Of a DNA stretch of 32,021 bases, positions 491 to 31,363 are shown piece after piece; position 1 is the first letter of the stretch, and every line of letters starts with the position of its first letter. The notes below the pieces were generated by a model. The model saw only the letters and a list, made by a program, of their open reading frames with translations, did not search any database and was not told the DNA's origin. This stretch comes from Patescibacteria group bacterium (GTDB lineage: Bacteria > Patescibacteriota > Patescibacteriia > UBA9934 > GWF2-40-263). The translations under genes and the position numbers were made by a program. The stretch is from the NCBI GenBank assembly GCA_018814025.1, contig JAHJAM010000018.1:1-32021 (forward strand). Direction: 5' to 3'.

Positions 491-525
491 AAAAAGATGT
501 CCTGTTTCGGGCATCTTTTTGTTTT
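491..525 (+). terminator. Rho-independent terminator of rpmE
   Basis: Stem AAGATGTCC / GGGCATCTT (with G-U) around a short loop at 494-518, followed by a T-rich tail (TTTTTGTTTT). Confidence 0.8.
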
Positions 526-539
526 ATCAAATTTCCCCC

Positions 540-568
540 TTCTGCATCCCTAAAGAAAGCGGTACACT
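540..568 (+). promoter_or_regulatory. Probable promoter of prfA
   Basis: TACACT (563-568) is a reasonable -10 box, with a weak TTCTGC -35 (540-545) 17 nt upstream. The ATG of prfA (579) begins 10 nt after the -10 box, so the message would be leaderless. Confidence 0.4.
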
Positions 569-578
569 TTATAAACAT

Positions 579-1631
579 ATGGACTTACTGAAAGAAATCA
601 AAGAAAAAAATAACTTATTCAAAGAACTCGAAGCTCAATTATCTGATCCCGAGGTGCTTTCTGATCCCAAAAAAATTCGCACGATTAATGAAGCATATTC
701 CGGACTGAAAGAACTCGTCGATCTGGGACAAGCATACCAATCTGCGCTCGCCAACTTGAAAAGCGCGGAATTTGAACTCAAATCCGCTGAAGATCCGGAA
801 CTCAAAGAGTTGGCGCAGGCAGAAATTGACGATCTGCAAGCTCGATTGCCGGCTCTGGAAGAAAAAGTTAGCTTGGCTCTCATTCCCCCCGATCCTCTGG
901 ATAAGAAAAACATCATTGTGGAAATTCGGGCCGGCACCGGCGGCGATGAAGCCGCTTTATTCGCGGCTAATCTTTTTCGCATGTATACCCGCTTTGCCGA
1001 AAGACAAAATTGGAAAACGAATTTGGTTTCACAAAGCCGCAATGATGTCGGCGGTTTCAAAGAAGTGATTTTTTCCATTGCCGGCACTAATGTCTACGGC
1101 CAGCTTAAATATGAAAGCGGTGTGCATCGAGTCCAAAGGGTCCCGGAAACCGAAAAGCAAGGCCGGGTTCACACCTCAACGGCCACGGTGGCAATTTTAC
1201 CTGAGGCCGAAGAGATTGATGTGCAAATCGATCCTCAGGATTTAAAAATTGAAGCCAACACTTCCCAAGGCGCCGGCGGTCAAAGCGTTAATACCACTTA
1301 TTCGGCCATTCGCATCACCCACCTGCCCACTGGCTTGGTGGTCAATTGCCAAGACGAGCGCTCCCAACAGCAAAATAAGGAAAAAGCCTTACAAATCATC
1401 CGCGCTCGTGTTTTTGCTCTTGAACAAGAAAAAGCCCGTCAAGAATTGGAAGATGCCCGCCGCGGCCAAATCGGGACCGGCGAACGCTCGGAAAAAATCC
1501 GCACCTACAATTTCCCGCAAGATCGCATCACCGACCACAGAACCAAAGAAAATTATCATGATTTGCCCGGCATCATGGACGGCGATCTCGCGCAACTGAT
1601 TAACGATCTGAAAAAAGCGGATCGTGGATAA
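579..1631 (+). CDS. prfA: Peptide chain release factor 1
   Basis: 350-residue class I release factor, which reads UAA and UAG and triggers peptidyl-tRNA hydrolysis. The catalytic GGQ lies in [17 protein letters not shown]. The codon-reading loop is in [20 protein letters not shown], where the P-x-T tripeptide of RF1 is PET. An N-terminal coiled coil precedes the core, and length is normal. An in-frame ATG at 519 exists, but it lies in the rpmE terminator and before the likely -10 box; [10 protein letters not shown] (579) fits the family N-terminus. In many bacteria prmC, which methylates the GGQ glutamine, follows directly; here a 1.5 kb RNA gene separates them. Confidence 0.96.
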
Positions 1632-1640
1632 TCAATCACA

Positions 1641-1666
1641 AAAATCCAACCTCAAGGTTGGATTTT
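1641..1666 (+). terminator. Terminator of prfA
   Basis: Perfect 11-bp stem AAAATCCAACC / GGTTGGATTTT with a TCAA loop. The T run lies in the stem's 3' arm, then GTATTTATT. The near-symmetric A/T flanks could also stop minus-strand transcription. Confidence 0.8.
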
Positions 1667-1734
1667 GTATTTATTATCCACCAAACTGTGGATAACTTTC
1701 TCTCCAAACCAAAAATTTTGCTAAGTTACGATGC

Positions 1735-1762
1735 TTGACTAAAATATTTAAGCGAGTACTAT
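1735..1762 (+). promoter_or_regulatory. Promoter of the large structured RNA
   Basis: TTGACT (1735-1740), 16 nt, TACTAT (1757-1762), predicting a start near 1769. The box pair lies between the prfA terminator and the structured region, with no start codon just downstream, unlike the gene promoters in this window. Confidence 0.65.
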
Positions 1763-1768
1763 AGACAT

Positions 1769-3250
1769 CACCCTCGCAGAGGAGAAACGGTCGATCCGTC
1801 GATCGCATCCCCCTTGTGAGCGGTCTTTCAAAAAATCACAAAGCGTCAACTTCAGAAACTTCAGAGGAATACAAAGCCTAATTCCTTCGGGAGTCTGGCC
1901 TCTTCACTCAGAAACGAAGAAGTTGATGTTTCGAAACTGATCAATTCTCTCTTGAGTCTGGTTGGGCCTCAAAACCTAACCTGACTTGTGTGTCAAAATG
2001 CACGGGCCTTCAGGATTCGGTTCGCCGGGTCTTGAACGTACCAGCACAGTGCTTGAGGAAAACCTGCCTGTCCCTACAGGAAAGGAATCCACAACTTCGG
2101 TTGTTCGCCATCCTTCGGGAAAAGCGATCAAGTAATGGAACCGCAAGGTTCGACACAAAAGAAGAATTGATTAGTATGAAAACCATTGTTCCTTCGGGAA
2201 AATGGTTGGCCAAAGCTCAGTTGAAACTACGTCAGGGTTCACCCCCTCACAAAGTCGAAGCTAAGCTGAAGCCCTTAATCACTTCGGTGATTGAGTTCAT
2301 TCGGGTGGTCAAAATGGTGGTCAATGCCTTTCGATCCTTCGATCGTCAAAGTACGTAGCGACTTCGGTCAAAACGGACTTGATCGGTTGATTGATTGGCC
2401 TCTTGGCTGAGTGAAAAGGAGCAATCCTAATCACTCTCGGTCCAACTAGTAACGGCGGCCCTACTCCTCCCTGACAGCTCATGGCGGTCACCGACCGCAC
2501 ACACCAATAAGGCGTTCGCGTCTTGCCGGTGGAGCTCGTCATAGGTTTAAAGGGTTAGGTATCGAAGGCTTGTTCCCAAAGCTGGCTTCAAAACCAGACA
2601 AAGAACATGAGACTTCGGTCCATACACCGTGAAGGTTGAAAATAGCCTAAAACAATTGGCTATTGAGTCGAGATCACTAACAGGTAACGCTGAGTACAGA
2701 TCAAAACTCCCCTACCGTCGAGATCAGTGGATCATCGGGTTACCCGAAGGATCCACTAAACGAACTTGATTACGATGCTTCGGCAGAAAATCAAGCAAAG
2801 CCTTAACCGGCTCTTTCGTTTCCCATTCGAAACATGTTCAATTTTTCTCAAAACCACAGGGAATCTTCAAAGGCGTTAAAACCCGCGGAGATGGTCAAGA
2901 GAAAAAAAGAACAATCTGGCAACAGATAACGCTTGTGTCCGGGAAAAATCCTTGACTAAATCGTCGGTTCGCAAGAACCAACTTCGCAGAAGCCTCAAAA
3001 ACTTCAGCGTTGTATTCCTTCATGGAAGCGATTTTCAAGGATGGACTTGAAACTTCGGTTGATAGTTCTCCCGGTTCGCGAGGCAGGTGTGCATCTGGTC
3101 GATGATGAAGTGGACTCATGCTCTCGGCGTCAAACGTCGAAGTACCACAGATTTGTCTCCAGATCTCACCTTGCCTTTCGAAAACCATCTCACTAGCCAC
3201 GGCTAGTTTATCTCTTGACCCTCTTGCTTCGGCAGAGGGTCTTTCTTTTT
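1769..3250 (+). ncRNA. Giant structured non-coding RNA, ~1.48 kb, family not recognised
   Basis: No ORF here looks protein-like: the longest in-frame runs are ~120-170 codons on opposite strands, overlap hairpins and have no family features. The plus strand holds ten C(TTCG)G motifs (cttcgg starts 1885, 2095, 2113, 2192, 2282, 2362, 2613, 2778, 3053, 3227) but only one reverse-complement CCGAAG, so structure is on the plus-strand RNA. Helices seen by eye: 1845-1853/1919-1927; 1956-1966/1975-1985; a 12-bp UUCG hairpin 2009-2036; GCAA hairpins 2138-2151, 2417-2428, 2966-2979; 2181-2207; an 8-bp UUCG hairpin 2275-2294; a three-way junction closed by 2472-2480/2532-2540 holding 2484-2498 and 2502-2531; 2641-2647/2658-2664; 2726-2733/2750-2757; 2765-2795; 3192-3207. 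I saw no RNase P, tmRNA, rRNA or group I/II intron signature. Size and style resemble ornate RNAs such as GOLLD, ROOL and OLE, but I cannot assign it to any. Confidence 0.8.
3217..3250 (+). terminator. Terminator of the large RNA
   Basis: GACCCTC-T-TGC (3217-3227), TTCG loop, GCA-GAGGGTC (3232-3241), one bulged T, then TTTCTTTTT. A strong intrinsic terminator that fixes the 3' end near 3250. The 5' ACCCTC at 1770-1775 could pair with GAGGGT of the 3' arm, so the RNA ends might compete with or close onto the terminator. Confidence 0.9.
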
Positions 3251-3274
3251 GTCTAATCGAGAAAGTGCTACAGT
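3246..3274 (+). promoter_or_regulatory. Possible promoter of prmC
   Basis: TACAGT (3269-3274) lies 8 nt before the ATG at 3283. A poor TTTTTG (3246-3251) lies 17 nt upstream, inside the T tail of the preceding terminator. Gene spacing suggests a leaderless message. Confidence 0.35.
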
Positions 3275-3282
3275 AAATTCGT

Positions 3283-4182
3283 ATGATGATTCTTGAAGCC
3301 CTGAAATGGGCCAACGAACAACTTAAAATTGATGATGGACCAGCAACTTCACCCATGCTTGATGCTGAAGTTTTGTTAGCCGCGGCTTTAGGCATGCCCA
3401 AAACCTGGTTGTTCTCACATTTTTCCTACGAGTTAAAAGGTGAGGAGGAAGAAAAATTTCAGGCTTTCATAAAACGCCGACTCAACCACGAACCAGTGGC
3501 TTACATCATTGGCTGGCATGAATTTTACGGCCGCAAATTTCGGGTCAACGCCCACACCCTGATTCCTCGTCCCGCCACGGAAACTTTAATCGATGAGGTG
3601 ATCAAGCTGACCAAAGATCACGATCCGACCAAAACTCTGTTAATCGATATCGGCACTGGCTCTGGCGCGATTGCCGTCACCTTGGCGGCGACTACCAAAA
3701 TCCCGGTTATTGCGACAGACATCAGTCAAGAAAGTTTGGAGATTGCCAAAAACAATGCCCAAGATCATCAAGTCGACGAATTGATTGATTTTCGACTCGG
3801 TGACACTTTGAAACCGATTATTAAAATCTTCACTCAACTTCAAAAAAACAAGCATGAGATTCCGGAACATATCATCTTGTGTGCCAATCTCCCCTATCTG
3901 ACCCAATATCAATGGCTATCCAGCCAGCCGGAAATTGCCAACTTTGAACCCAAAGGCGCTTTAGTGGCCGGTCAAGACGGTCTCGACGCCTATTGGCAGC
4001 TTTTTCGAGAATTGCACCAACACCGCAATTTATTCCCTCCTGATCTAATCACCCTGATCGAGATTGACCCGGAACAAGACAAACGCATTCAAAGTGTGAT
4101 TCGCCACGATTTCCCCAACAGTCAACCAGAGATTATTAAAGATCTGGAGGGTTATAACCGAATAGTAAAATCAGAGCTCTAA
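3283..4182 (+). CDS. prmC: Release factor glutamine methyltransferase PrmC (HemK family)
   Basis: 299-residue SAM-dependent methyltransferase that methylates the GGQ glutamine of release factors. An N-terminal helical domain (residues ~1-75) is followed by the Rossmann core. The SAM-binding loop DIGTGSG is at 122-128. The substrate motif, usually NPPY, reads NLPY at 202-205. The preceding IPRPATE (95-100) differs from the common IPRPxTE by Ala. There is no SD; ATGs at 3283 and 3286 are both possible. It sits on the same strand as prfA, its expected substrate gene, but downstream of the large RNA. Confidence 0.93.
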   Translation: MMILEALKWANEQLKIDDGPATSPMLDAEVLLAAALGMPKTWLFSHFSYELKGEEEEKFQAFIKRRLNHEPVAYIIGWHEFYGRKFRVNAHTLIPRPATETLIDEVIKLTKDHDPTKTLLIDIGTGSGAIAVTLAATTKIPVIATDISQESLEIAKNNAQDHQVDELIDFRLGDTLKPIIKIFTQLQKNKHEIPEHIILCANLPYLTQYQWLSSQPEIANFEPKGALVAGQDGLDAYWQLFRELHQHRNLFPPDLITLIEIDPEQDKRIQSVIRHDFPNSQPEIIKDLEGYNRIVKSEL

Positions 4183-16838: not shown

Positions 16839-17498
16839 GAAAAAACCGGAAAACTCATTGTGATTGACGGCACGGACGGCTCGGGTAAGGCTACTCAGAC
16901 CAAACTTTTGGTTGAACGCTTGCAAAAAGACGGGCAGCGCGTCCAGACTTTGTCTTTTCCCCAATACGGCCAAAAAAGTGCGGCTTTAGTTGAGGAATAT
17001 TTGGCCGGCCGCTACGGATCGGCCGAACAAGTCGGGCCTCAAGCCGCTTCCATCTTTTATGCCGTGGATCGTTTCGCGGCCCGCGGCCAAATCAAGGACT
17101 GGTTGAACCAAGGCCAATGGGTAGTGACTGATCGCTTTGTCTCTTCCAACATGGGCCACCAAGGCGGCAAGATTCATGACACCGAAAAACGCAAAGAATT
17201 CTTTCAATGGGAAGACGAACTCGAACACGGCATCTTTAATCTCCCCCGCCCGGACAAAATCATCTTTCTGCACGTGGCAGCGGCCATCGGCCAGCAGCTC
17301 ACCGCCCAGCGCGACGCCATTCAGGACATCCATCAGCAAGACCTGAACCATCTCAAAGACGCGGAAGCCGCTTATCAGCAAATGGCCGAAATTCTGCCCA
17401 ACTTTGAAAGAATCGAATGCGTCCAAGACGGCAATTTACTTCCCATTGAACAAATCCACGAGCGCGTCTTCGCACTCGTTAAGCCTCTTATCACTTAA
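16836..17498 (+). CDS. tmk: Thymidylate kinase
   Basis: 220 residues. Phosphorylates dTMP to dTDP. P-loop DGTDGSGKAT (11-20), the base/sugar site FPQYGQKSAALVEEYLAGRYG, the D-R-x motif VVTDRFVSSNMGHQ, and a C-terminal helical part. Its ATG is the right-hand copy of the CATG duplication flanking element A. There is no SD, so translation of the present mRNA, with ~150 nt of structured leader, is puzzling unless a promoter lies in the element end. It diverges from thyA and completes the dTTP block. Confidence 0.93.
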   Translation: MEKTGKLIVIDGTDGSGKATQTKLLVERLQKDGQRVQTLSFPQYGQKSAALVEEYLAGRYGSAEQVGPQAASIFYAVDRFAARGQIKDWLNQGQWVVTDRFVSSNMGHQGGKIHDTEKRKEFFQWEDELEHGIFNLPRPDKIIFLHVAAAIGQQLTAQRDAIQDIHQQDLNHLKDAEAAYQQMAEILPNFERIECVQDGNLLPIEQIHERVFALVKPLIT

Positions 17499-17502
17499 CT
17501 TT

Positions 17503-18405
17503 ATGAATCAACTCATTACCGTCGGACAGCTGCTGGACCAAACCTGGGACCATTACCGGGACAATTTTAAGGAACTGATGACCGTTTCCGCCTGGATCCT
17601 GATCCTGGCCGTCATTGATGTTTTGGCCCTGTCCTTTTACCCCTCGGCCAGCGAACTGGCCTTGGGCGCAACTTTAACCGGTTCGGAAATATTCGGCGTC
17701 ATCTTGGCCTTTATTTCTTCCGGAATTTTGGCTCCGCTTCTGGGTCTTTGGCTGCTCATTGCCCTGTCTCGCTTAGTCCGATTCCAATTGACCGGCCGCA
17801 AAAACGATGTCAAATCCGGCAAAGCCGGATCCGGCTCTGCCGGAAAAGCCATGTTGGAAGGTTTTCAATACTACTGGTCCGGCTTCTACATCAGCCTCTT
17901 GATTTTACTCGTGCTCTTGGCTGGTTTGGTTATTGGTCTGGGACCGGCCTTCATCTTAGCCGCCATCATGCAAGTGGCCAGCGGTGGCGCCCTAATCATT
18001 CTCTTTAATCTGTTCTTGGTGCTCGGCATCATAGCCGCTTTTGTTTTAGTCTTCACCTGGGGCGTGCAATTCATCCTGGCCCCGTTCGCGCTGTTCATGG
18101 AAGATCAGCGCGGCCTCAATGCCCTCAAGCGCAGCCGCGAATTAATCAAAGGCCGCTTCTGGAGCGTGGTTTTGCGCATCGTGATCCCAAAATTAATTTT
18201 CATGGCCGTGGGCGTATTGCTGCTGGCCATCATCGAATACGTAATTGGCTTGGGCATCACCGGCGTGTCCGGACTGAACTTGGATCTCCAACTGCGCTTA
18301 GGTTCCCTGACCCGAGCCGCCTTCCCTATTCTTATCGTGGCCTTGCTTAACCCGCTTATGGTCATTGCCGATCTCGTCCTCTATCGGGACTTGATGAAAA
18401 AATAA
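17503..18405 (+). CDS. Multi-pass membrane protein, paralog of the next gene
   Basis: 300 residues with about six hydrophobic segments (roughly 23-43, 60-90, 128-160, 170-200, 230-255, 270-290). Function not recognised. The motif FALFMEDQRGLNALKRSRELIKGRFWSVVLRI, with an aromatic-rich N-terminus (LLDQTWDHYRDNFKELM), resembles glycerophosphodiester phosphodiesterase membrane-domain/YciC-like families. A loop after segment two holds an in-frame 30-bp palindrome (SGKAGSGSAG) that the paralog lacks. The start is MNQLITV at 17503, 4 nt after tmk; a longer frame from 17404 overlaps tmk. Confidence 0.8.
   Translation: MNQLITVGQLLDQTWDHYRDNFKELMTVSAWILILAVIDVLALSFYPSASELALGATLTGSEIFGVILAFISSGILAPLLGLWLLIALSRLVRFQLTGRKNDVKSGKAGSGSAGKAMLEGFQYYWSGFYISLLILLVLLAGLVIGLGPAFILAAIMQVASGGALIILFNLFLVLGIIAAFVLVFTWGVQFILAPFALFMEDQRGLNALKRSRELIKGRFWSVVLRIVIPKLIFMAVGVLLLAIIEYVIGLGITGVSGLNLDLQLRLGSLTRAAFPILIVALLNPLMVIADLVLYRDLMKK
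17815..17844 (+). repeat. 30-bp palindrome inserted in frame (family 1, copy 2)
   Basis: TCCGGCAAAGCCGGA then TCCGGCTCTGCCGGA, one mismatch from perfect symmetry and one base from the gyrB copy. Read as SGKAGSGSAG in a hydrophilic loop of the membrane protein. Confidence 0.9.
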
Positions 18406-27626: not shown

Positions 27627-27635
27627 ATTATAGCA
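27627..27635 (-). promoter_or_regulatory. Extended -10 promoter of the baseplate J-like gene
   Basis: Minus-strand TGCTATAAT (TATAAT at 27632-27627), then 6 nt to ATG 27620. Identical in layout to the box before tmk element A. Predicts a leaderless mRNA independent of dnaE. Confidence 0.65.
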
Positions 27636-27708
27636 AAAAGGAAGAAAGGTAGAAAGTAGAAGTTAGAGAGTGGACGAAATTGAAAACTCCCCAAGGAAAA
27701 CCTTAAAG

Positions 27709-31363
<3,655 letters not shown>

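Follow-up and report, generated by a model that had tools for sequence, protein, structure and literature searches.

A predicted large structured noncoding RNA encoded between prfA and prmC in a family of Patescibacteria

The region between prfA and prmC described here is very probably an autonomous gene for a highly structured, non-translated RNA of about 1.48 kb, the longest known member of an undescribed, fast-evolving prfA-prmC RNA family common to most genomes of the host's taxonomic family. Comparison with relatives showed a fixed location, a common promoter and start, a DnaA-type box, a terminator, and selection on base pairing in the relatives' RNAs. The window, by which we mean the whole 32,021-nucleotide stretch of DNA that was analysed, belongs to a host genome of 978 kb (98.9% complete), in which the RNA is present as a single copy. 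The size and gene content of this genome point to the candidate phyla radiation. To our knowledge, bacterial RNA classes of comparable size and complexity are few, and the functions of the majority are obscure.

Results

Extent and predicted fold of the window RNA

The gene order in the window is L31, prfA, RNA, prmC, UPRT, and the features of the locus are listed in Table 1. As the initial annotation had proposed, a promoter and a strong terminator bracket the RNA region. Its size estimate of about 1.48 kb also agrees with the predicted unit, with a small correction to the end points, for which 1768-3246 is likelier than 1769-3250. The reading of this segment as a separate transcription unit for a predicted large structured noncoding RNA thus appears largely right.

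Within 1766-3250 the plus strand carries ten copies of CTTCGG and a single copy of the reverse complement, CCGAAG, as had been noted; the chance expectation here is indeed low, at about 0.5, judging from the 10 copies in the remaining 30.5 kb of the window. The C(UUCG)G loops claimed at all ten sites held for nine, which are possible UUCG loops in the predicted fold, but in this fold the copy at 2613 forms one strand of a helix. The three GCAA loops were confirmed, each closed by a perfect stem. The many helices that had been read by eye were matched by the predicted fold of 1768-3250, in which 67 helices of 4 bp or more had a mean probability above 0.8, and 386 of the 503 predicted pairs had a probability above 0.9. 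Long-range helices, for example 1926-1935/2826-2835, were predicted as well. When minimum free energies (MFE) were compared with those of dinucleotide shuffles, the z score was -9.7 for the sense strand and -6.9 for the antisense strand; the neighbouring genes that were tested gave -0.8 to -3.4.

The region had been described as lacking a protein signal, and neither of the two longest overlapping open reading frames matched Pfam or PHROGs at E<=1. A reading frame conserved through the region was looked for among relatives and none was found, so the noncoding reading was kept.

Because an extended -10 box lies 8 nt before its ATG, prmC is probably transcribed separately from its own promoter, as a leaderless mRNA. 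A fair proportion of the relatives also have a TGnTAnnnT box shortly before prmC. With a terminator-like hairpin after prfA and a promoter belonging to prmC, the RNA would be an independent unit and no leader.

Table 1. Positions of the features of the prfA-prmC locus within the window
Feature	Position	Strand	Basis
prfA (peptide chain release factor 1), upstream neighbour	519..1631	+	Pfam PCRF 8e-73, RF-1 1.5e-40
Intrinsic-terminator-like hairpin AAAATCCAACCTCAAGGTTGGATTTT, putatively closing the prfA transcript	1641..1666	+	sequence
Second DnaA-type box TTATCCACC, one mismatch	1674..1682	+	sequence
DnaA-type box, exact TTATCCACA on minus strand; sole exact one in window	1687..1695	-	sequence; same place in relatives
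Sigma70-type promoter TTGACT-16-TACTAT of RNA unit	1735..1762	+	sequence; TTGAC-type promoter at same place in relatives
RNA start, conserved: AGACATCACCCTC in window, e.g. AGACGTTACCGTC in relative L039	1764..1776	+	comparison with relatives
Predicted large structured noncoding RNA	1768..3246	+	MFE z -9.7, 503 predicted pairs, without Rfam or protein family
5' hairpin domain (CTCGCAG/TTGTGAG; inner CGGTCGA-TCCG-TCGATCG)	1773..1820	+	pair probabilities 0.94-0.97
Central domain, subdomains 1936-2175 and 2307-2725, closing long-range helix 1926-1935/2826-2835	1926..2835	+	pair probabilities 0.86-0.99
Long imperfect 3' hairpin, overall shape as 3' domain of several relatives	3075..3182	+	independent MFE folds
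Intrinsic terminator GACCCTCT-TGCTTCGGC-AGAGGGTC	hairpin 3217-3241, T-run to ~3245	+	sequence
Extended -10 promoter TGCTACAGT, 8 nt upstream of prmC ATG	3266..3274	+	sequence
prmC (release-factor methyltransferase), downstream neighbour	3283..4182	+	Pfam PrmC_N 1.3e-19

Units at prfA-prmC in relatives and in sister families

The initial annotation had put forward a DNA search as the route to homologues. Across 43 family genomes such a search matched the window itself and nothing else acceptable; a weak match in G019 was rejected, as it sits in a coding gene (fusA by sequence). Relatives were found instead through synteny, by examining the region downstream of prfA, between prfA (or an open reading frame of about 220 aa right after it) and prmC. 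By our own tally, 29 of the 43 genomes, representing 14 of 19 genera, carry a noncoding unit at this place, a count that includes two copies (L196 and L199) recovered beside prmC where the contigs are broken. Eleven genomes have no unit at the locus, and the remaining 3 have contig ends there. Because it is absent from the locus in 11 genomes, the unit has either been lost or moved within the chromosome in some genomes, or is dispensable there.

The units of the relatives are preceded by a TTGAC-type promoter of their own, and a terminator can usually be recognised. Unit lengths range from 537 to 1481 nt (about 0.54-1.5 kb), the longest being that of the window. Most units share the promoter, a UUACCGUC-like start and the DnaA-type box. 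The start downstream of the -10 element reads (A/G)NCGUUACCGUC or a close variant in most units (AGACAUCACCCUC in the window), and a few, such as L046 and L053, depart from this consensus. Two tandem units are present in L053, with a terminator on each. A different element with inverted ends, CTGTTCG(C/CA)GACATCCGCAG...AAGAACAGA, was seen beside the RNA unit in two loci, where it follows the RNA (L039) or precedes it (L044); it may be a short repeat or mobile element.

For the three other families of the order, the prfA-prmC gap was measured in 27 cases in which a single contig holds both genes, and it came to 20-407 nt in 26 of them. The exceptional gap, L189, is 1063 nt long and contains long open reading frames and no such promoter. 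Since the gaps of sister families are nearly empty, the unit at prfA-prmC is an innovation of a single family.

Base pairing is under selection in the relatives

Within genera, the RNAs could be aligned at 59-81% identity. For the covariation test, a structure was derived from two congeners and tested on a third, with shuffles that kept the per-base substitution among paired columns. Covariation among homologues, on which the initial annotation had staked the reading, was found in syntenic relatives (genera g7, g8 and g18), but the window's own RNA had no alignable relative in the genomes searched. For g8, 12 compensatory pairs were counted against 2.6+-1.5 expected, and 16 broken pairs against 34.9+-2.7; the results for g7 and g18 resemble these. 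The compensatory count was reached by at most 2 of 500 shuffles in eight of nine tests, and by 83 of 500 in the ninth (L070+L199 structure on L068). The fold of the relatives' RNAs is under selection: pairings are kept while the sequence changes, which is therefore the behaviour expected of a functional RNA.

Fold z scores of relatives or paralogs ran from -1.7 to -13.2, lying below -2 in 8 of 9 in one set and between -2.3 and -9.1 in another. The L043 fold was weakly better than shuffles (z -1.7).

Homology across genera and occurrence beyond the family

Sequence matches across genera were confined to short stretches. Independent folds of the 3' ends of L037, L041, L052, L060, L068, L069, L070 and L199 gave a similar long imperfect hairpin, as did 3075-3182 of the window. 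A covariance model of this 3' domain built from five relatives (R1) found L069 at E 0.016 and, weakly, L041 at E 0.26; the window copy (3075-3182) went undetected in the R1 search. A strong homology claim for the window copy is weakened because R1 missed it, and its membership, which stands below that of a demonstrated homologue, rests on its position, DnaA-type box, promoter and start. The window unit shows the signature of the new family, namely a promoter, a DnaA-type box and a start at the prfA-prmC junction, followed by a terminator. Elsewhere in the window, at 27627-27770, tandem GTAGAAA repeats (TAGAAAGTAGAAAGTAG...) able to self-fold gave a spurious covariance-model match.

Searching the family with the promoter and start pattern gave matches in 9 genomes, compared with 3 in a reversed control. 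One genome, G021, holds an unlinked paralog (L201) in addition to two tandem units at prfA-prmC. A further candidate, L193, was set aside as probably due to chance.

The same pattern, applied to 381 genomes of the class, gave six matches outside the family and none in the control. Five of the six look like chance matches, being in or beside genes and having no box. The other, L207, from another family of the class, is an 816-nt unit with a terminator, upstream of a GAPDH-like gene (gapA); it has a fold z of -11.4, a one-mismatch box and no Rfam match. L207 is a probable relative, so that the RNA may have an earlier origin and a wider distribution, at differing loci.

DnaA-type boxes upstream of the RNAs

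An exact TTATCCACA box, on either strand, lies just upstream of the -35 element in 28 of 30 family RNAs (25 of 27, plus three further copies), at 40-95 nt upstream of the RNA. Boxes with at most one mismatch reached 8.1 per kb upstream of the RNAs against a background of 0.2 per kb, and none was present in family loci without the RNA or in the prfA-prmC gaps of sister families. The host genome has 22 exact boxes; genes that follow an intergenic box include a class II ribonucleotide reductase gene, mraZ and a LytR-CpsA-Psr gene. Placement before ribonucleotide reductase and mraZ is consistent with a DnaA-type regulon, in which DnaA would be the putative binder.

Exact boxes numbered 17-28 per genome in the host genome and six other family genomes, compared with 0-6 per strand in a reversed control, and many were intergenic and lay immediately before a promoter (nrd, mraZ, LCP, giant RNA). 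The possibility that the RNA locus is a replication origin was rejected, as exact boxes are scattered over these genomes, a pair of boxes in tandem, 31 bp apart, sits away from the RNA (in G002, at 721 kb as against 409 kb), and GC skew in the window keeps its sign across the RNA.

Two further loci of the host genome were recorded. L214 1245-1415 (G000:C25, about 17344-17514, plus strand) is a tRNA-like RNA with a GGGCUGG/CCAGCCU acceptor and a UACGGGUUCGAGUUCCGU T-arm, in which a large structured insertion takes the place of the anticodon arm; it lies behind an exact DnaA-type box, has a fold z of -5.0 and received no ARAGORN or Rfam call. L221, about 1236-1530 (G000:C53), is a noncoding unit of about 290 nt with an exact DnaA-type box, a promoter, a terminator and no Rfam match.

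Comparison with known RNA families

The claim that the RNA belongs to no recognised family was upheld: no Rfam family reached the gathering threshold anywhere in the window, and nothing credible appeared at E<=10 in 1600-3350. GOLLD, ROOL and OLE in particular were absent from cmscan searches of the window (gathering), of 1600-3350 (E<=10) and of 13 relatives' loci (E<=2). Likewise, the window RNA had no Rfam match to RNase P, tmRNA, rRNA or group I or group II introns, as had been stated. Neither tRNA nor tmRNA was found in the window, the relatives' units had no Rfam match, the RNA region matched nothing in a phage collection, and a literature search found no description of a prfA-prmC RNA.

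Like the window RNA, GOLLD RNAs are very large (many >800 nt), ornate and protein-free, with a conserved 3' region and a variable remainder (PMC12286853). GOLLD is encoded in phages or prophages near tRNA islands (PMC12286853), whereas the window RNA is a chromosomal unit in the prfA-prmC interval, carries a DnaA-type box and matched no Rfam family. ROOL (Rumen-Originating, Ornate, Large), which may act as RNA only (PMC12286853), is similarly large, intricate and without a known protein partner; it differs in being borne by phages or prophages near tRNA islands, neither of which applies to the window RNA, and in being an Rfam family. OLE (Ornate, Large, Extremophilic) shares with the window RNA a chromosomal location, large size, complexity and single copy. 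However, OLE is about 600 nt long and extensively conserved in sequence (PMC9723947, PMC11332333), whereas sequences of the prfA-prmC RNA family can hardly be aligned from one genus to another, and no Rfam match was obtained. The raiA-motif RNA and HEARO also belong to the large, structured RNAs of bacteria, and their functions too are uncertain, but they are smaller (343 nt for HEARO; PMC12286853) and recognised by Rfam.

Among housekeeping RNAs, the RNase P RNA (RF00010) of the host genome is at G000:C10:16476-16972, and separate tmRNA genes were found in 33 of 42 relatives. A genome-wide search of the host found no tmRNA above the Rfam cut-off. Neither RF00169 nor RF01854 detected an SRP RNA above cut-off in 20 genomes from the order of the host, and no Ffh M domain (PF02978) was over cut-off in them, compared with its presence in 14 of 14 control genomes. 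The order thus appears to lack the signal recognition particle. Identification of the window RNA as SRP RNA was rejected, as Ffh is missing too and the S-domain motif is absent from the RNAs.

Discussion

An RNA that directly precedes prmC in the same orientation and ends, like attenuators, in a terminator could be a giant cis-acting, riboswitch-like leader controlling that gene. We hold this to be very improbable: the extended -10 box of prmC lies downstream of the terminator, likewise in a good part of the relatives; there is an unlinked copy in G021 and a likely relative upstream of gapA in another family; and 0.5-1.5 kb is an unusual length for a leader. Still less credible is a divergent form of a housekeeping RNA (RNase P, tmRNA, SRP RNA, 6S or an rRNA fragment). 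That SRP RNA is recognised nowhere in the order and tmRNA falls below cut-off in the host genome would suit such a reading, but RNase P RNA is encoded elsewhere in the host genome, tmRNA elsewhere in most relatives that have the prfA-prmC RNA, and the absence of Ffh indicates that SRP is missing as a whole, so that no RNA is needed. The lack of an S-domain motif in the RNAs and of any credible Rfam match at E<=10 also speaks against it.

The presence/absence polymorphism within genera g14 and g19, the extra copies in G021 and the large size variation are what might be seen if a mobile-element or phage-derived RNA (an intron, a retroelement or a ROOL/GOLLD-like RNA) had been inserted in the family ancestor and were decaying at different rates. 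This origin is improbable, given that no intron or other Rfam match, phage-collection match or associated protein was found and that the RNA is single copy in its own genome; the clear selection on base pairing argues against decay. Several shorter RNAs, co-transcribed or processed from one precursor, might instead take the place of one 1.48-kb molecule, in keeping with the tandem units with their own terminators in L053 and a threefold variation in unit length. We think this unlikely, since an internal terminator was looked for in the window unit and none was found, and the helix 1926-1935/2826-2835, with a predicted probability of 0.88, spans the unit.

For the autonomous RNA gene that we favour, the following course can be proposed. 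RNA polymerase would start near 1768, controlled by DnaA or some other factor that recognises the TTATCCACA box immediately 5' of -35; transcription would end at 3245, and prmC would restart from its own promoter. If transcription is modulated through the box, it would hence probably be coupled to replication or growth state. We tentatively suggest that the product may be a stable structural RNA, such as a particle or RNP scaffold, made in step with replication and growth, and no guide, leader or mRNA. A broader and slightly more doubtful proposal is that of a class-wide, replication-linked giant RNA, controlled by DnaA boxes in many families at differing loci and forming an RNA or RNP particle in cells without a signal recognition particle, which sequence divergence would have hidden from catalogues.

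If the favoured reading is true, the prfA-prmC RNAs would constitute a new class of large noncoding RNA, and an RNA gene of 0.5-1.5 kb would be a costly one for genomes of about 1 Mb. It would combine near-complete turnover of sequence with preserved pairing, at one spot in most members of a family. Because of this rapid divergence, Rfam-style searches miss prfA-prmC RNAs, and synteny together with promoter signatures may offer a route to more such RNAs. The DnaA-type box would provide a testable handle on the timing of RNA synthesis.
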